From Anaeromyxobacter terrae (lineage in GTDB: Bacteria > Myxococcota > Myxococcia > Myxococcales > Anaeromyxobacteraceae), in assembly GCF_022690685.1 (NCBI RefSeq), contig NZ_JALCYY010000017.1:1-64000 (forward strand): a DNA stretch of 64,000 nucleotides, given 5' to 3'. A program made the translations under genes and the position numbers. Positions 2,469 to 60,631 of this stretch are shown here, piece by piece. How positions within the stretch are numbered: the first letter of the stretch is position 1; every line of letters starts with the position of its first letter. A model generated the notes under the pieces. It ran no database searches and was not told where the DNA came from. It saw only the letters and a program-made list of their open reading frames with translations.

Positions 2469-4175
<1,707 letters not shown>

Positions 4176-4383
4176 TCGGTAAGGACCAACCTTTGTCGGG
4201 ATCACGCCGGACCTGCGACTCTGGGTGAGCGGCTCAGGACCGCCCCGGCGTCAACCACAGCAAGCCCCCTGGTTCGTGTCGCGGCCGACGCCCCGGGGAT
4301 CGAAGGCGCGCCGCGCGCCGGGCATACCCCGGCGTACATCGGGAATCTTGGAAGGCGCACGCTACACGCCCGAGATCAGGCGG

Positions 4384-5235
4384 TCAAGGCGCGCCCTGAG
4401 GGCGGAGGGCGCGCAGCCAGCTCGCCACGCCCTCGACCACCCAGTCGGGCGTCGAGGCGCCGGCCGAGAGCCCGACCACCCGGCAGCCCTCGAACCACTC
4501 CGGCCGGAGCTCGGCCTCCGTCTCCACGTGCCAGGTGCGCCCCTGGATCTCCCTGCAGATCTCGGCGAGGTGGCGCGTGTTCGCGCTGTTCTTGCCGCCG
4601 ACGACCACCACCGCGTCGACCTCGCGGGCGAGCGAGCGGGCGTCCGCCTGCCGCTCCTCGGTGTCGTTGCAGATCGTGTTCACCGCCCGGACCTCCTTGT
4701 GCCGGAGGGCGAGCGCGCCCACGACCGCCTCGAAGTCCGCGCCGATGCAGGTGGTCTGCGCGATGACCGCGACCTTCTTCGCCGGGATCTCCGGGATGGG
4801 ACCGCCCGGCTTCACCACCGTGCACGGCCCCTCGCTGAAGGAGACGACGCCCTTGATCTCGGCGTGGTTCGCGTCCCCCACGATCACGACGTGGTACCCC
4901 TCGGCGCTGAGCCGCTGGGCCATCGCCTGCGGGTACTTCACGTACGGGCAGGTGCCGTCCACCACCTCGAGGCCGCGTCCGTCGGCGCGCTCGAGCTCCT
5001 CCTTCACCGCGCCGTGGGTGCGGACCACGACGGTCGTCCCGTCGGCCACCTCGCCGACGGCGTTGACGGTGCCGACGCCCTTCTCGCGGAAGCGCGCCAC
5101 CGCCTGCGGGTTGTGGATGATGGGCCCCAGCGTCACGACGGGCCCCGAGGACTGGTCGGCGACCTCCATCACCTTGTCGACGGTGCGACGGACGCCCCAG
5201 CAGAAACCGGCGGTCTTGGCGATCTTCACTTCCAC
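4384..5235 (-). CDS. ispH: 4-hydroxy-3-methylbut-2-enyl diphosphate reductase
   Basis: IspH (LytB) performs the last step of the MEP isoprenoid pathway, reducing HMBPP to IPP and DMAPP with a [4Fe-4S] cluster. The three cluster cysteines are visible: Cys12 (GFCWGVRR), Cys96 (DGTCPYVK) and Cys189 (NTICNDTEERQ), together with the substrate histidines in PIIHNPQ and RTHG. Starting at the GTG at 5235 gives 283 residues; the longer reading frame upstream adds Gly/Arg-rich sequence absent from the family. A second GTG two codons later is also possible. A TATATA stretch just upstream could be a -10 element. Confidence 0.96.
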   Translation of the reverse strand: MEVKIAKTAGFCWGVRRTVDKVMEVADQSSGPVVTLGPIIHNPQAVARFREKGVGTVNAVGEVADGTTVVVRTHGAVKEELERADGRGLEVVDGTCPYVKYPQAMAQRLSAEGYHVVIVGDANHAEIKGVVSFSEGPCTVVKPGGPIPEIPAKKVAVIAQTTCIGADFEAVVGALALRHKEVRAVNTICNDTEERQADARSLAREVDAVVVVGGKNSANTRHLAEICREIQGRTWHVETEAELRPEWFEGCRVVGLSAGASTPDWVVEGVASWLRALRPQGAP

Positions 5236-47401: not shown

Positions 47402-50400
47402 TCACGCCACCCCGAGCTTCTCGACGTTCACCGTGAACGCCTTGAACTCGGGGGTCTGGACGTTCGCGTCTCCCACCGCGGGCGTGAGCGTGTTGGCGAG
47501 GTACCCGGGTTTGGTGAGCCCCTCGAACCCCCAGTGGATGGGGATGCCCACCGTGTGGATCGTCCTCCCCGCCACCGTGAGCGGCCGGATCCGCTTCGTC
47601 ACCACCGCCTTCGCCACGATCTCGCCGCGGTTCGAGCGCACGCGGATCCGCTCCCCGTCGCGGATCCCCTTCTCCTTCGCGAGCGCCTCCCCGATCTCCA
47701 CGAACTGCTCGGGTTGGAGGATGGCCGGGATGCGCGCGTGCTTCGTCCAGAAGTGGAAGTGCTCGGTGAGCCGGTACGTCGTCGCGGCGTACGGGAACTT
47801 CTCCGAGGTGCCGAGCGCCGCCTTGTCCCCCGCGAAGATGCGCGCCGCAGGGTTCGTGCTCGCGACGGCCCGCTCGTGGAGCGGGTTCTTCGCGAGTGGG
47901 CTCTCGAAGGGCTCGTAGTGCTCCGGGAACGGGCCGTCGGTCAGCTTGTCCGCGCCGAACAGGCGCCCGACGCCCTCCGGGTTCATGATGAACGGCGCCA
48001 TCCCCGACTCGGATGCGGGAGGCTGGTCCACCTTGAAGTCGGGCACGTCGGGGCCGACCCACTTCTCGCCGTTCCACTTCACGAGCGCGCGGCGCGGATC
48101 CCAGGGCTTGCCCGTGGGATCGCACGATGCGCCGTTGTAGAGGACCCGCCGGTTGGCCGGCCACGACCACGCCCACGAGGGCGTGAGCCCGAGCCCGCTG
48201 GGATCGGCGGTCTCCCGGCGCGCCATGTTGTTCTTGTCGGTGTAGCTGCCCGTGTAGATCCAGCAGCCCGCCGCGGTGGAGCCGTCGTCGGTGAGCTGGC
48301 CGAACGTGGTGAGCTGGTCACCGCGCTTGACCACGATCTTCGTCTTGTCCTTCGGATCGGGGAGGTCGGCCAGCGCCCAGCCGTTGTACTCGCGCGCGAG
48401 CTCCTCGGCCGACGGTCGGCTCGCGACCGCGTACGGCCAGGCCAGCTTCACCATGGGGTCCGGGAACGCGCCGCCCTCTTTCGCGTAGAGGGTCCGGATC
48501 CGGTGGAAGAGCTCGCCGAGGATCTCGAGATCCGTCTTCGCATCGCCCGGCGGCTCCGCGCCCTTGTAGTGCCACTGCAGCCAGCGGCCCGAGTTCGTCA
48601 GCGAGCCGTCCTCCTCGGCGAAGCAGCCGGACGGCAGGCGGAACACCTCCGTCTCGATCTTCGCGGGGTCCACCGGGTTGAGCTCGCCCGCGTTCCTCCA
48701 GAACGTGGAGGTCTCGGTGACGAGCGGGTCGATCACCACGAGGAACTTGAGCTTCGAGAGCGCCTCGAGGTTTTTCGCCTTGTGCGGCGCCGAGGCGAGG
48801 ATGTTGAAGCCCTGGCAGATGTAGCCGTTCACCTTCCCCTGGTGCATGAGCTCGAAGACGGTGAGGATGTCGTAGACCTTGTCCAGCTTCGGCAGGTACT
48901 CGTAGGCCCACTGGTTGTCCTTCGTCGCGGCGCCTCCCCACCACGCCTTCTGCAGCGACACGAAGAACTTGGGGTAGTTCTGCCAGTAGCTCATCTGCCC
49001 CGGACGCAGCGGCTTCAGCGTGCGCGCGGCGAGGTAGGTGTCCACGTCCTTGTCCGCCTCCTTCGGCACCGTCAGGTAGCCGGGGAGCAGGTCGGAGAGG
49101 ACTCCCACGTCCGTGAGCCCCTGGATGTTCGAGTGGCCGCGCAGCGCGTTCACGCCGCCCCCCGCCATCCCCACGTTGCCGAGGAGGAGCTGGATCATCG
49201 CCATCGCGCGGATGTTCTGGGTCCCGACGGTGTGCTGGGTCCAGCCGAGCGCGTAGAGGCTCGTCATGGTCCGGTCGGCGGGCGCGGTGGACGCGATCGT
49301 CTTGCAGACCTCGAGGAACTCCTCCTTCCTGGCGCCCGTGATCGAGGAGACGACCTCCGGCGTGTAGCGGGAGTAGTGCTTCTTGAGGAGCTGGTAGACG
49401 CAGCGCGGATCCTGGAGCGTGGGATCCACCTTGGCGTAGCCGTCCGGCCCGAGCTCGTACACCCAGGTCGACTTGTCGTACTTGCGGCCGGCCTCGTCGT
49501 AGCCGGAGAAGAGCCCGTCGTCGAAGTGGAAGTCGGCGCGCACGATGAACGCCGCGTTCGTGTACGACTTCACGTACTCGTGCTGGATGGCGTCGTTCGA
49601 GAGCAGGTAGTTCATGACGCCGCCCAGGAACGCGATGTCGGTCCCGGGGCGGATCTGGACGAACTGATCGGCGACGGCGGCCGTCCGGGTGAAGCGCGGA
49701 TCGATCACGATGAGCCGCGCCTTGTTGTGCGCCTTCGCCTCCGTCACCCACTTGAAGCCGCAGGGGTGCGCCTCCGCGGGGTTGCCGCCCATCACGACGA
49801 TGACGTTGGCGTTCTTGATGTCCGCCCAGTGGTTCGTCATCGCGCCACGGCCAAACGAGGGGGCCAGACCGGCCACCGTGGGGCCGTGTCAAACACGTGC
49901 TTGGTTATCCATGGCGGTCATGCCCATGGACCGGAAGATCTTGTGCGTGAGGTAGCCCGTCTCGTTGGACGAGGCGCTCGCCGCCAGCAACCCGACGGTG
50001 GTCCAGCGATTCACCGTCACGCCCGCGGCGTTCTTCGCGACGAAGTTCTTGTCGCGATCGTCCTTCATGAGGCGCGCGATGCGGTCGAGCGCCCACTCCC
50101 AGGTGACGCGCTGCCATTCGCTGGCGCCGGGCGCGCGGTACTCGGGGAACTTGAGCCGGTGCGGGCTGTTCACGAAGTCGATGAGGCTCGCGCCCTTCGG
50201 ACAGAGCGTGCCGCGGTTCACGGGGTGATCCGGATCACCCTCGATGTGCACGAGCTTGAGGTGCGCGTTCTTCGACCGATCGCCGAGGCCGTACATGATG
50301 ACGCCGCAGCTGACCGAGCAGTACGGGCAGGTGTTCCGCGTCTGCGTCGTCGAGGCGAGCTTGAAGTTGCGAACGTCGGCGAGGACGCGGTCGGGGGCGA

Positions 50401-50476
50401 ACCCGAGCGCGCCGAGGCTCGTGGCCCCGATCCCCGACGTGGTGAGCTTGAGAAACTGGCGTCGAGACAGGTTCAT
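47402..50476 (-). CDS. fdoG: Selenocysteine formate dehydrogenase-N, catalytic subunit
   Basis: 1,024 residues when the in-frame TGA at 49889-49891 is read as selenocysteine 196 (RV-Sec-HGPTVAG), the same position as in E. coli FdnG. Tat signal SRRQFLK at 4-10, [4Fe-4S] motif CPYCSVSC...TLCPKG, then the molybdopterin domains ([38 protein letters not shown]). Oxidises formate in the periplasm. The ATG at 50476 has GGAGA 7 nt upstream. The two open frames flanking the TGA are one gene, not a pseudogene. Confidence 0.96.
49860..49891 (-). promoter_or_regulatory. UGA selenocysteine codon and bacterial SECIS hairpin
   Basis: The UGA (49891-49889) is followed by a stem-loop GGUGGCC-GGUCU-GGCCCC whose loop GGUCU is the SelB-recognised loop of E. 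coli fdhF/fdnG SECIS elements; the loop lies about 19-23 nt after the UGA, the correct distance. Confidence 0.9.
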
Positions 50477-54638: not shown

Positions 54639-55643
54639 ATGGTCGAGGTGGTGCAACGGCATCTCCTCGAGGTGGACGAGGTCGCGGCGCTGATCCGCGG
54701 CGGGGAGACGCTGCTGCTCGCCGGCGACGAGGGCAGGCTCAGCCTGCTGCCCCGGGGGAAGTGGATCGCGGGGACCATCCCGTACTTCATGAGCGAGGAA
54801 GGCGGCGTGGTGGACCGCCGGCGCGTCTTCGTCGACAGGATCCCCGCGCGCTCGGAGTACGCGGGGATCCGCCGCTACGACGAGACCGGGATCGCGCGGG
54901 TGTATTCCGAGCTGCCGCCAAGCGCGATGGGCGTCGTCATCGCCCCGTACGCGAGCCGCGTGCACCTCGCCTTCGCGATGAACGCGCCCAGGTACGAGAA
55001 GTTCGCCACCGCCCCGCTCTTCGGCTGGATCTCGGGGGTCGACCTCTCCGAGCTCGGCAAGACGCGGCCCAAGGTGTTCGACGGCACCACGGCCGAGGCG
55101 CTGGAGGACCAGGCCGTCGTGATGCACGTCGCCTTCCCCCCGGGCGTGCGCGCGGAGGTGGCGATCCTCAACATCTTCGAGAAGGGGACCGGGCCCGCCA
55201 TCACCTTCCCGGCGACCGGCTTCTCCGCGAGCACCGCGGAGATCGACGGCCGGGAGCGCAACTTCGCCGAGTATGTCGAGGAGGCGGGCCTCGACGCGCG
55301 CCTGCCCCTCGTCGCCGACTACTTCGGCGCGGCGATCAACGTGAGCTTCCAGGCCGTCGATCGAGCGCGGGGCGAGGTCCGGTTCTACGCTCCGGTGTTC
55401 GCCGGGGTCCGCTACCACCACGCCCGGCCGGTCGAGGACTACGTGGACGCGTTCGTCTCGGCGCTCCCCACCGGGATCGCCGAGCGTGTCGCGCTCTCGT
55501 GCAACTGCGTCGTGAACTTCGTCAACTCGTCGCTGGAGGGCAGGACCACGGGAGACATCGTCGGCCCCGCCACCTTCGGCGAGATCGCGTACCAGCTCCT
55601 GAACCAGACGATGGTCTATCTCACCGTCTCGGATCGAGGCTGA
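54639..55643 (+). CDS. Conserved hypothetical protein, family not recognised
   Basis: 334 residues, no signal peptide or membrane helix. It opens with an alpha/beta stretch (EVAALIRGGETLLLAGDEGRL) and contains KWIAGTIPYFMSEEGG and ALSCNCVVNFVNSS. The composition is that of a soluble folded enzyme or sensor. Because it diverges from a soluble hybrid kinase it may be functionally linked to it, but this is only context. Convergent with the 55659 lipoprotein gene (15 nt apart). Confidence 0.75.
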   Translation: MVEVVQRHLLEVDEVAALIRGGETLLLAGDEGRLSLLPRGKWIAGTIPYFMSEEGGVVDRRRVFVDRIPARSEYAGIRRYDETGIARVYSELPPSAMGVVIAPYASRVHLAFAMNAPRYEKFATAPLFGWISGVDLSELGKTRPKVFDGTTAEALEDQAVVMHVAFPPGVRAEVAILNIFEKGTGPAITFPATGFSASTAEIDGRERNFAEYVEEAGLDARLPLVADYFGAAINVSFQAVDRARGEVRFYAPVFAGVRYHHARPVEDYVDAFVSALPTGIAERVALSCNCVVNFVNSSLEGRTTGDIVGPATFGEIAYQLLNQTMVYLTVSDRG

Positions 55644-55658: not shown

Positions 55659-56618
55659 TCAGAACGGCGGCGAGGGCACGGCCGGACACGCCGAGACGTC
55701 GCCCAGCGAGCAGGGCAAGGCGCCGCCGCAGCTGAACGCGGCGGGGTCGTCCACGTAGACGAGGCAGGCGGTGGGGTCCCAGCACTCGCGGAAGCCGCCC
55801 GTCACCCCGCCCACGGTGCGGAAGCCGACCGCGGCGCGGCCCGCCGACGCGGCGTCGAACGAGGCGGTCACCACGAGCAGGTCGCCCTGGGCGTTCCGGA
55901 ACGCGTACGTGAACTTGCCGCTGCGGTCCGCGTAACCCTCGAAGCGGTAGCCGAACTGCGCGAGCCCGAAGCCGTCCTGGTCGAGCACGAGGCCGATCGT
56001 CACCGGATCGGCGGACCGGTCGTACTCCACCCCCATCCGTCCGCGCGGCGTGGTCGCGTCGGCCATGCCGAGCGTCCAGAGCGCGTCGAAGTCGAGCCCG
56101 AGCGTCCCCTTCCCCCTCGAGGCGGACGCGCCCTCGAACGAGCCGGCGAGCACCGTGGTCCAGGCGCCGCCGGACGTGACGCGGGCGTCGAACGCGTACG
56201 CGAACGTGGGCGGCGCCTCGGCGCCGTTCGGGAACTGCCGCAGGATCGTCACCCGGAGCTCGCGGCCCGGGTGGCGATCGTCCGGGAACGGCCCCCAGCC
56301 GCGGGCGTCCACCTGCCGCCACGACGGCGGCTCCTTCCGGACGACGTCCACGAGTCCGAGCAGGAACTCGATCGCGCCGTTCAGCCGGTCCGACTCGGGC
56401 TTCGCGCGCAGCCACGTGGCGGCGGGGCGCGTGGGGCAGGCGGCGACCTGCGCCGAGGCGCCGGCGCTGGCCTGCGCGTCCGCCGGGACCTCCACGCGCA
56501 GGTCGGCGCGGCTCGGCACGGCGGCGAGGAAGCGGAGGTCCTCGGTCGAGTAGTCGCCGCAGGCGGCGCAGAGCCCGAGGCACAGCGCGGGAACGATCGC
56601 CCTATTCACCGAGCGCAT
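55659..56618 (-). CDS. Lipoprotein B of the sigma/caspase operon
   Basis: 319 residues, lipobox CAAC (lipid Cys at about 20). Residues ~80-290 are a beta-rich domain; the C-terminus has a Cys-rich end (ECWDPTACL, FSCGG, LPCSLGDVSACPAV). The pattern ECW...GDVSAC and the central RGKG...Y(D) segment are shared with the lipoprotein at 59513-60535, so the two are paralogues. The start overlaps the caspase stop by 17 nt and is preceded by GGGGGTGG. Function unknown; likely outer-membrane or periplasmic. Confidence 0.8.
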   Translation of the reverse strand: MRSVNRAIVPALCLGLCAACGDYSTEDLRFLAAVPSRADLRVEVPADAQASAGASAQVAACPTRPAATWLRAKPESDRLNGAIEFLLGLVDVVRKEPPSWRQVDARGWGPFPDDRHPGRELRVTILRQFPNGAEAPPTFAYAFDARVTSGGAWTTVLAGSFEGASASRGKGTLGLDFDALWTLGMADATTPRGRMGVEYDRSADPVTIGLVLDQDGFGLAQFGYRFEGYADRSGKFTYAFRNAQGDLLVVTASFDAASAGRAAVGFRTVGGVTGGFRECWDPTACLVYVDDPAAFSCGGALPCSLGDVSACPAVPSPPF

Positions 56619-58185
56619 ATTCCACCCCCAGCATCCCCTCGACGAACCCGAGGCTCCGGTTCTCGTCGACGTTGTAGAAGAGGTACGAGACCCGCAGGCG
56701 CGCGAGGGCGGCGAGGCGCGGCGTGAGGCGCCAGGCGGCGCCGCCCACGAGCCCGGGCGTCACGGTGAAGAAGGTCTGGCTCGGCAGCTCCTCGCGCGCC
56801 GGGAAGCTGCGGCCGAGGAAGGTGAGCCCGACCCGCGCGCCCGCCGAGAGCACCACCGGCCCGAGGACGAGGTCCTTCCAGAGCGAGGCGCCGCACGCAA
56901 CCTCCGCGAACTTCACCGGGATGGGCTCGACGCCGGGCAGCCGCAGCGTGCCGGCGCCGCCGCCCAGCGCCGCGTCGATCCCCCAGGCGAGCCCGCGCCC
57001 GAGGTCGTCGCGGACCGCGAGCTCCAGCCCGCCGAGCGTCGCGGGCGGGAAGAGCCCGTCCCGCGCGGCGCGATCGAAGAAGCGCTGCGCGCCGAGCCCG
57101 GCCACGAGCGCCCAGCGCGTGCCCGAGAAGCCCTTCTGCGGATCGCGATCGAGCCGGACTCGGTCCATGCGCGCGTCGTCCACGACGGCCGGCGCGCCGC
57201 CCCCGACCGAGACCGGCGTCACGAGGAGCGCCGAGTCGTCGGCGAGCCGCTTCTTCACGGTGTACCGGCCGGCGGGGAGCGCCACGCGCCGCTCGGCACC
57301 CGCGCCCTTCGCCACCTCGGCGACCGCGCGCCCGGCGCCGTCGAGCACGACGTAGAGCCCCTCCGCCGCCGCGGGCAACAGGAGCCCGCCCGTGACGGGC
57401 GCGAGGTCGGTGAGCACGAGATCCCCGGACCCGCCGAGATCGTAGAGGAACACCGGGTGCTGGACGCCGCCCGCGCTCGAGGCGGTGGAGCCGACGGTGC
57501 GCGCGTACGCGTACGCGTACGCCTCGGAGAGCGTGACGCGACCGTCGCCGGAGGCGTCGGCGCCGCCGAGGAGGCCCGAGGCGAGGTGGTGCGTGAACCA
57601 GCTCGCGCCGATGGCGTCCGACTCCTGCGAGTCCTCGTCCCCGGCGGACGAGGCGATGAGCACGAGCCCGCGCGGCCCCTCCTCCGCCGCCGAGACGTCG
57701 AAGGCCGGCGCGGGCCGGACGCCCTTGGCGCGGGCGATGGCCCCGGAGCGGCAGGAGTCGACGAGCCCCACGCGGACGTCGGCGGGCGCGGCCTCGAGCG
57801 CGGCGCGGAGGGCCTCGAACGGCACGCGCCCGCTCCCGAGCCGGAGCGCGCCGTCCTTCGCGTGGCCGGAGTAGTAGACGAGGAGCACGGTGCGCTCGCC
57901 GCGGGCGCGCGCCGCGCCGGCCCGGTCCGACAGCTCCGCGAGCGCGCGCATGAGCTCGCCCGCGGTCCCGGAGAGCAGGAGGCGCGCGTCCTCGGGGCGG
58001 ACGCCGCCGACGCGGGTCAGGATGCCGTGGATGCGCCGCGCGTCGCGCTCGGCGTAGCGGAGCTTCACGGTGCCGGCCCCGCCGTCGGGCGCGCCCGCCA
58101 CGAGCGCGAAGCGGTGCGGCTCGGCGGCGCGCCCGGAGGGGATCGCGAGGACGAGGACCGCGGCGGCTGCGAGGGCCCGGATCAC
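56602..58185 (-). CDS. Caspase-family protease fused to a barrel-like region
   Basis: 527 residues. Signal peptide 1-20. Residues ~25-235 are a peptidase C14 (caspase) domain with both catalytic residues: His108 (YYSGHAKD) and Cys145 (VDSCRSGAI); a Ca-type loop GDGRVTLSEAYAYAYA follows. Residues ~245-350 are a carrier-like beta domain. Residues ~360-527 are Gly/aromatic-rich alternating strands resembling an outer-membrane barrel. The GTG start overlaps the anti-sigma stop (GTGA). Cleavage after Arg/Lys or Asp cannot be predicted. Confidence 0.85.
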   Translation of the reverse strand: MIRALAAAAVLVLAIPSGRAAEPHRFALVAGAPDGGAGTVKLRYAERDARRIHGILTRVGGVRPEDARLLLSGTAGELMRALAELSDRAGAARARGERTVLLVYYSGHAKDGALRLGSGRVPFEALRAALEAAPADVRVGLVDSCRSGAIARAKGVRPAPAFDVSAAEEGPRGLVLIASSAGDEDSQESDAIGASWFTHHLASGLLGGADASGDGRVTLSEAYAYAYARTVGSTASSAGGVQHPVFLYDLGGSGDLVLTDLAPVTGGLLLPAAAEGLYVVLDGAGRAVAEVAKGAGAERRVALPAGRYTVKKRLADDSALLVTPVSVGGGAPAVVDDARMDRVRLDRDPQKGFSGTRWALVAGLGAQRFFDRAARDGLFPPATLGGLELAVRDDLGRGLAWGIDAALGGGAGTLRLPGVEPIPVKFAEVACGASLWKDLVLGPVVLSAGARVGLTFLGRSFPAREELPSQTFFTVTPGLVGGAAWRLTPRLAALARLRVSYLFYNVDENRSLGFVEGMLGVEYALGE

Positions 58186-58919
58186 CTTCGTCCCCGCGCG
58201 AGCGGCCGGACGATAACCTCGGCGCCGGCCCCGGCGGCTCCGTTCGCGCCCCGCTGCGCCAGCCGGGCGCGCAGCGCGCCGACGTCGACCGGCCGATCGT
58301 CGAGCACCGCGACGAGCGCGCCGTCCCCGGCGCCCGTCCACGCGAACGCGTCCCCCACCGCCCCCGCCGTGGCCGGCCCGGCGTAGAGGACCGCGACGCC
58401 ATCGCGGTCGACGAGGGCCACCGCGGCGTGGGCGTGCCCCGTCGCAGGGAGTCCGACGCGCAGCGATGCCCCGGGCGGCACCGGCTCGCCCGCCGCGAGC
58501 GCCCGCACGCTCCCGGCCTCGCTCGCCCACAGCGTGAGCTCGATCGCGCCCTTCGCGCGCCAGCCCTGCGCGTCCGGCCCCGGCACGATCCGCAGGAGGA
58601 GCGGCACCGCCGCCAGGGCGACGACGACGGCCGCGAGCGCCAGCCCGGCGCGGAGGAGGCGGAGGCGCGGCGCGACCACCGGCGCGTCCGCGCGGGCGAG
58701 CCCCTCCGCGACCCCCGCGGCGAACCGCTCGAACGGGAGCGACGCGTGGAGCGCCTCGCGCTCGCGCGCGAGCTCGCGCGCCGACGCCTGGCACCGGGCG
58801 CAGCCTGCGAGGTGCGCCTCGGTGCGGGAGCGCTCGTCCCCCGCGAGCTCGCCCGCCTCGAGGCGGCGGATCCGTGTGATCGAGCACGCGACGCCGGGGC
58901 CGCCCAGCTCGGTCCTCAT
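58182..58919 (-). CDS. Anti-sigma factor with zinc-binding N-terminus
   Basis: 245 residues. The N-terminus has the ZAS-type HxxxCxxC (His36, Cys40, Cys43) that grips an ECF sigma factor; one membrane helix at about 85-108; and a periplasmic domain with a DUF4384-like pattern (VALVDRDGVAVLYAGP). Its ATG overlaps the sigma-factor stop (ATGA). It should hold the sigma factor at the membrane until a periplasmic signal arrives. Confidence 0.88.
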   Translation of the reverse strand: MRTELGGPGVACSITRIRRLEAGELAGDERSRTEAHLAGCARCQASARELAREREALHASLPFERFAAGVAEGLARADAPVVAPRLRLLRAGLALAAVVVALAAVPLLLRIVPGPDAQGWRAKGAIELTLWASEAGSVRALAAGEPVPPGASLRVGLPATGHAHAAVALVDRDGVAVLYAGPATAGAVGDAFAWTGAGDGALVAVLDDRPVDVGALRARLAQRGANGAAGAGAEVIVRPLARGRR

Positions 58920-59500
58920 GGCAGCTCCTCCGGGTCGGGCAGGGAGAGGTCGGGGAACGCCTCGCGCAGCGCGCCGCGCGCGGCGCCCAGGAACTCGCGC
59001 AGCCGCTTGCGGACCGTCGGGAGGCTCCGGCCGGTCGCCTCGGCGATCTCGGCCTGCGTCAGCTCGTCGACGAAGTAGAGCACGGCGACCTCCTGCGCCT
59101 CCGCCGGCGCCGCGCCGAGGAGCACACGGACCAGCTCCCGGGACTCGGGCAGGATGCCCGCGCTGCGCCGCTCCTGGGCGAGCCGCGCGAGCTCGTCCTG
59201 CCACGCGGCCCGCGAGGCGCGCAGGACGTTCAGGCAATGGTGCGTCGCGGCGGTCATGAGATAGGCGGTGGGCGAGGCGGCAGCGCGCAGCTCGGGGAGC
59301 GCGCGCAGCGCGCGGACGAAGACCTCCTGCGCCGCGTCGCGCGCCCCCTCCTCGTCGCGCAGCAGGTAGCGGCAGCGCGCGAGCACCCCCGCGGCGTGCC
59401 GGCGGTAGAGCTCCTCGACGAGCCCGGCCGCCGGCGAGGCCGCGGGGAGCGGGCCGGCGGGGCCGGCCCTCCCTCCCGCGATGACCTCGAGCCGCGCCAT
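58916..59500 (-). CDS. ECF-type RNA polymerase sigma factor
   Basis: 194 residues. Region 2 (YRRHAAGVLARCRYLLRDEEGARDAAQEVFVRALRAL) binds the core and -10 element; region 4 (EVAVLYFVDELTQAEIAEATGRSLPTVRKRL) is a helix-turn-helix for the -35. Long sequences here are quoted only in part from two segments. It sits 12 nt after the upstream lipoprotein gene and before its anti-sigma factor. Its targets probably include this operon. Confidence 0.92.
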   Translation of the reverse strand: MARLEVIAGGRAGPAGPLPAASPAAGLVEELYRRHAAGVLARCRYLLRDEEGARDAAQEVFVRALRALPELRAAASPTAYLMTAATHHCLNVLRASRAAWQDELARLAQERRSAGILPESRELVRVLLGAAPAEAQEVAVLYFVDELTQAEIAEATGRSLPTVRKRLREFLGAARGALREAFPDLSLPDPEELP

Positions 59501-59512
59501 CCGGACTCTTGC

Positions 59513-60535
59513 TCAGGGGACGTCGAGCGTCGAGTACTGCGGCTCGCCCTGGAACGCGGCGGCGCAGGCCGACACGTCGCCGAACACCGGGTCGGTGTCG
59601 TAGGTGAGCGCGAACGCGCCCGCCTTGCCCGCCCAGCACTCGCTCGCGCCGTAGTCGAACGTCCAGCTCCCGTTCACGCCCTCGGCGAAGACGCGGGCGT
59701 CGCCGCGGCCCGAGCCCGTCCCGTCCCAGCGCGTGTGGAGCGAGAGGCCCACCGGGTTCGCCGCCGGGTCCTGGCCCCGGAACGCGACCTGGAGGTCGCC
59801 GCCGGCGCCGGTCGCCACGAACGCGTACGCGGCGTCGAGCGGGTTCCCGTTCTGCTCGTCGCGGGAGCCGACGAGCTGCGCGTCGATGCGGGTCGCGGCG
59901 GTGGTGTCGTACTGGAGGGAGAGCGTGCCGTAGCGCAGCTCGGACTCGGGGAGCTGGCGGGCGTTCTCGAAGGAGACGGTGAGCTCACCCTTGCCGCGAC
60001 CCGCGGCGGCCGGCTCGGCCACGCCGCTCACGATGGGGAGGAACGGGCCGGGCTCGACGAGGTTCATGGCCGAGAGCTCGTAGCGGAACTTGCCCTCCTC
60101 GACCTTCGTGACGACGAGCTGCCAGCGCTTCACCTTCAGGCCCGCGGTGATCTTGCTCTCCTCGTCCCAGGGCCCCCAGGTGCAGGTGTCGCCGCTGCAG
60201 CCGGTCGGCGGGAGGAGCGTGATGAAGCGGATCGTGGCGAGCGTCCACCACGCTCCGCCGTTCACGGTCCAGGCGGTGACGTAGGACCAGCGCGCGTAGT
60301 CCGAGGTCGTGACGGCGGGGAACCGGGCGTCGAAGGTCGCGTCGGCCGCCGTCGTCGCGGTCAGCGCGGCGGGGGAGGCGGCCGTGGACGACGCGTCGGC
60401 GCTGTCCTTCGGCGTGTCGATGCGGATGGCGCTCGCCGCGGGGATGGCGCTCCGCGCCTCGTCCGGGGTGATGTCCTGCTTGCCGCAGGCTGACGCGAGC
60501 ACGGCGAGGGCCAGGGTGGCGATCGTCTTTCTCAT
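59513..60535 (-). CDS. Lipoprotein A of the sigma/caspase operon
   Basis: 340 residues from the ATG at 60535 (MRKTIATLALAVLASAC); the upstream frame has no signal peptide. Lipid Cys at about 17. A Ser/Ala/Thr-rich linker precedes a beta-rich domain; two cysteines in SGDTC and SECW, and a C-terminal GDVSAC shared with lipoprotein B. First gene of the five-gene operon, 12 nt before the sigma factor. Candidate stress sensor or substrate; function unknown. Confidence 0.8.
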   Translation of the reverse strand: MRKTIATLALAVLASACGKQDITPDEARSAIPAASAIRIDTPKDSADASSTAASPAALTATTAADATFDARFPAVTTSDYARWSYVTAWTVNGGAWWTLATIRFITLLPPTGCSGDTCTWGPWDEESKITAGLKVKRWQLVVTKVEEGKFRYELSAMNLVEPGPFLPIVSGVAEPAAAGRGKGELTVSFENARQLPESELRYGTLSLQYDTTAATRIDAQLVGSRDEQNGNPLDAAYAFVATGAGGDLQVAFRGQDPAANPVGLSLHTRWDGTGSGRGDARVFAEGVNGSWTFDYGASECWAGKAGAFALTYDTDPVFGDVSACAAAFQGEPQYSTLDVP

Positions 60536-60613
60536 CTCGAAGACCTCGGTGGTCGGCCGGTTCATTCCGGCGCGGTCTACGGAGAGAGACACGCTACCCC
60601 CCTCGGAATGGAA

Positions 60614-60631
60614 ACGGGCAGGCGAGCCCGT
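60614..60631 (-). terminator. Weak hairpin after the aspartate kinase gene
   Basis: ACGGGC / GCCCGT stem followed on the minus strand by TTTCC. Short stem and T tract; may end ask transcription before the sigma operon. Confidence 0.4.

Follow-up and report, generated by a model that had tools for sequence, protein, structure and literature searches.

An operon of Anaeromyxobacter terrae encoding a sigma factor, an anti-sigma factor and an exported caspase, with a candidate cleavage motif common to the protease and the anti-sigma factor

What an exported caspase might be doing in one operon with a sigma factor and an anti-sigma factor is the question raised by a locus of Anaeromyxobacter terrae (assembly GCF_022690685.1, contig NZ_JALCYY010000017.1), which lies at positions 55659-60535 of the 64,000-nucleotide (nt) stretch analysed here, called the window below. 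Bacterial caspases are widespread, but to our knowledge few have a natural substrate that has been identified. The locus consists of five minus-strand genes encoding, in order of transcription, a lipoprotein (lipoB), a sigma factor of the extracytoplasmic function (ECF) type, an anti-sigma factor, a caspase with a C-terminal barrel, and a second lipoprotein (lipoA). The intergenic gaps are 12, -4, -4 and -17 nt, and thus the original prediction of a five-gene operon, whose members overlap or stand at most 12 nt apart, proved correct. The caspase and the anti-sigma factor have a basic-Gly motif in common. We consider it about an even chance that the locus is a self-amplifying envelope-signalling operon, in which the caspase matures at such a K|G bond and cuts the anti-sigma factor at another, as its site-1 protease.

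Conserved gene order and promoter motif

Among 60 relatives, the caspase was matched in 48 and lipoB in 28. A scan of the named genomes yielded 80 loci, of which 72 were orthologous, and 52 of these had both flanks covered. All five genes were found in the same order in 48 of the 52; the remaining four, one of them (L123) from Anaeromyxobacter oryzae and the others L161, L181 and L188, lacked only lipoB. The order recurs across several families of relatives, the named hosts including Anaeromyxobacter, Myxococcus, Corallococcus, Archangium, Pyxidicoccus, Hyalangium and Citreicoccus. It reaches other Myxococcota families as well, being complete at two distant loci (L216 and L219) and present at a third (L225) as a variant with both lipoproteins last. 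The gene order, whose conservation in Myxococcota had been put forward as a check, is thus kept beyond chance rather than by local accident. A second locus in the same genome (L001/L096) and other paralogous loci carry the sigma factor, anti-sigma factor and caspase without the lipoproteins. The caspase family was matched in 161 of 193 Myxococcota genomes (163 of 193 and 161 of 193 with other queries), and the lipoB profile in 145 of 195. We also considered a mobile or viral origin of the operon and set it aside, as no relative of the caspase was found in viral contigs.

Two side observations concern the fate of such loci. A decayed copy of the operon is present in another genome (L082, G007:C1:2262500-2271000), where the C-terminal half of the caspase and a broken lipoA are the only remnants; the paralogous caspase locus (L098) has sigma factor, anti-sigma factor and caspase. 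Next to the second caspase locus, both in L096 (5207-6292) and in L098 (1146-2285), there is a gene which matches only the C-terminal part of the caspase and may be described as its caspase-less partner.

The lipoB gene (59513-60535) is preceded by a putative ECF-type promoter (TTTCCATTCC...GTGTC, i.e. TTTCCAT, 15 nt and GTGTC; 60588-60614, minus strand), which starts 79 nt upstream of the lipoB start. The motif reads TTTCCAT-N15-GTGTC here and mostly TTTCTGT-N14-GTGTC in the Myxococcus-like branch. In its strict form it was present in 23 of 26 upstream regions, that of this locus included, and in none of 200 dinucleotide shuffles. Of the 58 named loci, 44 likewise had the strict form, and 12 of the other 14 differed from it at one or two positions. 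All 46 strict matches in about 800 kilobases (kb) of the named loci precede this operon, 44 of them before lipoB and two (L123 and L161) before the sigma factor gene where lipoB has been lost. The genome of A. terrae has two strict matches, namely the operon promoter and one on another contig (C63), near an EF-Ts-like gene and with no gene-called open reading frame (ORF) downstream on its strand within the 1.5 kb covered. The reversed pattern gave no match in this genome, and the strict motif gave none in two relatives devoid of the operon.

The assignment of this element as a promoter is a prediction drawn from its conservation. An ECF-like promoter stands upstream of all five genes, and the operon therefore very probably drives its own transcription, with the caspase very probably under the control of its sigma factor, as a circuit of the kind first suggested would require. 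A wider regulon was looked for in the A. terrae genome, and allowing one mismatch added only one further match to the two strict ones.

The sigma factor (58916-59500, 194 residues) contains sigma-70 regions 2 and 4 only (PF04542 Sigma70_r2, 46.8 bits, cut-off 24; PF08281 Sigma70_r4_2, 28.9 bits, cut-off 25.7) and is thus of the ECF kind. The anti-sigma factor (58182-58919, 245 residues) belongs with the zf-HC2 anti-sigma factors (PF13490, 24.0 bits, cut-off 22.2), as it combines an HxxxCxxC zinc finger, with H36 conserved in 99% and C40 and C43 in 100% of 91 aligned rows, with a hydrophobic helix; it is predicted to bind and inhibit the co-encoded sigma factor. It crosses the membrane once, and its periplasmic part is DUF4384-like in relatives. 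Together with several site-2 protease homologues in the same genome (PF02163, over cut-off), this is the architecture of regulated intramembrane proteolysis.

An exported caspase and the basic-Gly motif

The caspase (56602-58185, 527 residues, GTG start) begins with a signal peptide and matches PF00656 Peptidase_C14 (26.6 bits, cut-off 21.4), and its His/Cys dyad, H108 and C145, is invariant in an alignment of 44 sequences. The AlphaFold model, with a mean predicted local distance difference test (pLDDT) score of 88, combines a caspase domain with a beta-sandwich and with eight strands at the C-terminus (residues 357-525; 56611-57117). A Foldseek search with this model matched OmpA (9fzc, E 2.5e-8), NspA (2.4e-7) and OmpX (1.2e-6), which bears out the barrel of the original prediction. 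The same search also returned MALT1 (1.8e-7) and a metacaspase, a second fold comparison gave metacaspase 4 at Z 21.7 (root-mean-square deviation (rmsd) 2.8 over 209 residues), and a sequence profile found metacaspase-1 at E 1.4e-6. The score for the EACC1-associated caspase family NF047832, 61 bits, was below the cut-off of 140 and places the protein outside that family. Asp143, two residues before the catalytic Cys145, is invariant in these caspases; we take it to be tied to the specificity for basic residues of the metacaspase/paracaspase type, and the enzyme is accordingly predicted to cut after a basic residue. Since the N-terminal domain precedes a barrel with an even number of strands, the protease domain would lie in the periplasm, anchored in the outer membrane by the barrel. 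Of the two locations first proposed for this protease, surface or periplasm, the latter agrees with the signal peptide and the eight-stranded barrel, while exposure of the N-terminal domain at the surface would be at odds with them.

At this locus the motif reads RAKG in both proteins. In the anti-sigma factor, R121-A-K123-G124 (58548-58559), just outside the membrane helix, is a predicted K|G cleavage site; with the zinc finger and the membrane region set aside, no other place is as well conserved. All 91 orthologues (74 of them distinct) have Lys123, which stands 7 to 26 residues past the helix, and 88 of them have RxKG. Outside the ortholog set, 49 anti-sigma factors adjacent to a caspase gene had RxKG in 38 cases and [KR]G in all 49. 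By comparison, RxKG was found in none of 12 control anti-sigma factors with a zinc finger, a helix, more than 60 periplasmic residues and no caspase neighbour. In the caspase, R152-A-K154-G155 (57721-57732) is a predicted autoprocessing site in a low-confidence loop after Cys145. Its R152, K154 and G155 are invariant in the 44-sequence alignment, and the motif follows the catalytic Cys by 7-10 residues, in or beside a segment (154-161) modelled with pLDDT below 50. The corresponding region of caspases whose mechanism is known forms the interdomain loop, which is cut during maturation.

The motif was then compared between partners. A first set of 48 caspase/anti-sigma pairs was left after five of 53 candidates had been dropped, as no anti-sigma factor was found upstream. 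For the enlarged set, five of 90 rows were dropped, and two more for weak membrane helices, and the 83 rows added came in many cases from clades that lose the Arg. The resulting 131 pairs include the operon orthologues and eight second copies of a locus, and one pick (L390) was set by eye. K-G was present in both partners in 129 of the 131 pairs, or 121 of 123 distinct ones, with the caspase Lys at Cys+9 in 124 and at Cys+7 in six. RxKG stood in both partners of 56 of the 60 orthologous pairs. As for the other four, L132 is a picking artefact (its counterpart L072 reads RWKG), L167 and L187 have lost the Arg and kept K-G, and L171 reads RIK-S.

Two divergent classes, read by eye, follow the same rule. 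One lacks K-G in the caspase loop but has ..KGG.. or ..KGR.. in an N-terminal segment of the caspase, and its anti-sigma factor carries G-x-K-G past the helix. The other has Arg for Lys on both sides, with R-G in the caspase loop and AR-G, YR-G or AR-S in the anti-sigma factor. It needs to be mentioned that in a divergent class of sigma/anti-sigma/caspase loci (L350-L360) the caspase has a lipoprotein-like signal start and a conserved ..KG[GR]LVP.. segment.

A possible signalling circuit and its rivals

These features may be combined into one circuit. At rest, the zinc-finger anti-sigma factor would keep the ECF sigma factor tethered to the inner membrane, while the barrel would fix the exported caspase in the outer membrane and leave its protease domain on the periplasmic side. 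A signal, possibly sensed through the two lipoproteins, would trigger self-cleavage of the caspase at R-x-K|G, in the loop that follows the catalytic Cys. The mature enzyme would then cut the anti-sigma factor at R-x-K|G just outside the membrane helix, which would be the site-1 cut, and a site-2 protease would free the sigma factor. Transcription of the whole operon from its own promoter would provide more caspase and possibly a switch-like response. The more general form of this idea is that exported caspases throughout Myxococcota act as the dedicated site-1 proteases of ECF anti-sigma factors, that one basic-Gly motif serves as both maturation and substrate site, so that the outer-membrane protease and its substrate retain one recognition sequence between them, and that the result is a self-amplifying switch, with the two lipoproteins acting, in this branch, as sensor or brake. 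For this broader statement we put the chances a little below even.

Several points weigh against the circuit. Cleavage of the anti-sigma factor by the caspase, as first suggested, now has a concrete candidate site, but is itself a prediction. The weakest point is geometry, as a caspase of the outer membrane must reach the inner one. The shorter motif is less selective than RxKG, [KR]G occurring somewhere in six of the 12 control anti-sigma factors, and the R-G classes were read by eye. Twenty weak caspases, in which K-G at Cys+9 was found in 0 of 20, had served as a control free of anti-sigma factors; this control was withdrawn, as most of them have sigma and anti-sigma factor genes upstream, and they are in fact the divergent classes. 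The Arg two residues before the Lys is a further case. In the 48 pairs it gave a table of 36/1/0/11 (Fisher 5e-10), but on the first tree this comes down to four changes, with three of four independent pairs in agreement (p 0.25). In the larger set the table was 71/28/27/4, and of the independent pairs two agreed, about one disagreed and six were the same. Covariation of this Arg (P3) between partners was thus dropped, since the association fails the phylogenetic test in the larger set, while the shared K-G holds.

Should the cut not be made by this enzyme, the caspase could be a mere output of the sigma factor: a DegS-like or other site-1 protease would release the anti-sigma factor, and the caspase would act on other envelope proteins, such as lipoproteins or surface proteins, for instance in remodelling. 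Many sigma operons do encode outputs, the caspase lies downstream in a predicted sigma-controlled operon, and lipoproteins nearly always accompany this type of caspase (48 of 52 loci). We nevertheless find this explanation rather unlikely, as it accounts neither for the K-G that 121 of 123 distinct pairs carry at exposed sites in caspase and anti-sigma factor alike, nor for the persistence of sigma factor, anti-sigma factor and caspase together in paralogous loci free of lipoproteins.

One may also doubt that the anti-sigma factor is cut at its K-G, which could instead have a structural role, marking the start of the periplasmic domain. It might then be a structural or docking element of the DUF4384-like domain, recognised uncut by the caspase or a lipoprotein, and the K-G of the caspase would be a separate autoprocessing or structural feature. 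That domain is conserved, conserved residues can be structural, and seven of eight DUF4384 matches in nine genomes adjoin caspase genes. On the other hand, the distance between motif and helix varies from 7 to 26 residues, which is more linker-like, and in the divergent classes both partners change together, either by R for K or by a copy in the N-terminal segment of the caspase; we regard such a structural or docking role as distinctly improbable. The operon might also be an apoptosis-like death or lysis module, in which the sigma-driven caspase kills the cell in development or after attack. Metacaspases could serve developmental death in Myxococcus according to the part of PMC3501461 used here, and bacterial caspases elsewhere have been placed in immunity systems (PMC8195603, likewise used in part). 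However, no toxin, pore or nuclease gene was found in the operon, the promoter motif points to a local regulon, and no sign of killing was seen in any analysis. The programmed reading in the original prediction, if taken as programmed death, is unsupported, and we judge this possibility very remote.

Lipoproteins, surroundings and known systems

The two lipoproteins, lipoB (340 residues, lipobox ASAC-G) and lipoA (55659-56618, minus strand, 319 residues, lipobox CAAC-G), were presumed to be paralogues, and profile-profile comparison agrees (probability 100, E 4.9e-46, 301 columns, 21% identity). Neither was matched in Pfam or NCBIfam, no sequence match for the family was found in the PDB, and the 41-row lipoA alignment gave only two stray single-row matches. 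The AlphaFold model of lipoB (pLDDT 82) consists of a long helix and 12 antiparallel strands, the alternating hydrophobicity of which is compatible with a soluble or a membrane barrel. Foldseek found no PDB match to it at E<=0.001, and a second fold comparison gave porins at a middling Z of 9.0 (rmsd 6.4, 189 residues). A LolA or RseB fold had been guessed from the helix-plus-strands topology; Foldseek gave no match, and neither fold was among the matches listed, which excludes nothing.

Many lipoproteins of this family stand alone in Myxococcota, and the family is thus wider than the caspase operon; lone members occur beside housekeeping genes at L212, L217, L218, L226 and other loci. A third member in A. 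terrae itself (L095, C113:8500-17500, ORF 3953-4951) is 49% identical to lipoB over the aligned part and adjoins epimerase-like genes; the promoter motif was not found before it. In two other genomes (G008 and G009) such epimerase genes lie next to lipoB and the first part of the operon, and given this shared neighbourhood the third lipoprotein may be a remnant of the ancestral site, left after the operon had moved.

The nearest neighbours of the operon are, by Pfam, a DUF6976 gene and an amino-acid (aspartate) kinase gene. The former (429 bits; window 54639-55643, plus strand) converges on the 3' end of the operon, and a very similar ORF occupies the same place in another genome (G005). Elsewhere in the window (47402-50476, minus strand) there is a formate dehydrogenase-like protein, named by eye, in which an in-frame TGA is taken as selenocysteine U196 (..NQARV-U-HGPTVA..). 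A match to Rfam SECIS_3 lies at 49836-49894 on the same strand (78.9 bits, cut-off 63), and the plain ORF list ends this protein at 195 residues.

The proposed circuit resembles several known systems. With RseA-DegS-RseP it would share a membrane-bound anti-sigma factor with a periplasmic domain and a site-1 cut outside the membrane which precedes the site-2 cut. DegS, which cuts RseA, is a PDZ serine protease of the inner membrane, whereas the candidate here is an outer-membrane caspase whose gene belongs to the operon itself. The analyses run gave no link between the lipoproteins and RseB. With FecA-FecR-FecI cell-surface signalling it would share the path from an outer-membrane barrel through the periplasm to an anti-sigma factor controlling an ECF sigma factor. 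The FecA-type partner is a TonB-dependent transporter, whereas here it is an eight-stranded barrel with a protease domain, whose matches are OmpA, OmpX and NspA. Cell-surface signalling receptors do span the distance from the outer to the inner membrane (PMC11637429 and PMC5411451, as far as the parts used here go).

A parallel in logic is the type III-E CRISPR (clustered regularly interspaced short palindromic repeats) system, where caspase-like Csx29 cuts Csx30, an inhibitor of the ECF-type CASP-sigma, and in the authors' model inhibition is thereby relieved (PMC10028731, part of the text). Both cases pair a caspase-like protease with an inhibitor of an ECF-type sigma factor, cleavage being predicted in ours. 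The Csx29 system, as described there, is RNA-activated and CRISPR-encoded, whereas here the anti-sigma factor is bound to the membrane by its helix and the caspase has a signal peptide and its own barrel, which sets the locus apart from a type III-E caspase and inhibitor free of export signals and membrane helices.

The original prediction held the circuit to be undescribed, which is true only in part. Four Myxococcus xanthus metacaspase operons with sigma-70 factors were reported in 2012, with the same sigma-metacaspase structure in Anaeromyxobacter, Haliangium, Sorangium, Ralstonia and Fibrobacter (PMC3501461). The bacteria and the type of gene pair agree with ours, and relatives of our locus are very probably among the four M. 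xanthus operons and the one from Anaeromyxobacter. The parts of that paper used here name sigma factors only; we add the anti-sigma factor, the lipoprotein pair, the barrel, the promoter and the candidate cleavage site. A literature search, run mostly without subscription papers and without bioRxiv preprints, returned no report of this operon's anti-sigma factor, lipoprotein pair, promoter, barrel or shared motif, no paper in which a periplasmic caspase cuts an anti-sigma factor, and none on an orthocaspase together with a sigma factor.

For a caspase family matched in 161 of 193 Myxococcota genomes, a candidate natural substrate, the precise bond and a transcriptional read-out can now be named together. 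If the cut is real, the caspase would act as a signalling protease of the cell envelope rather than as a killer, and one shared motif would link its maturation to the release of a sigma factor. The many paralogous protease-substrate pairs per genome would then offer an evolutionary test bed, and most genomes of a phylum would contain a caspase-run form of regulated intramembrane proteolysis.

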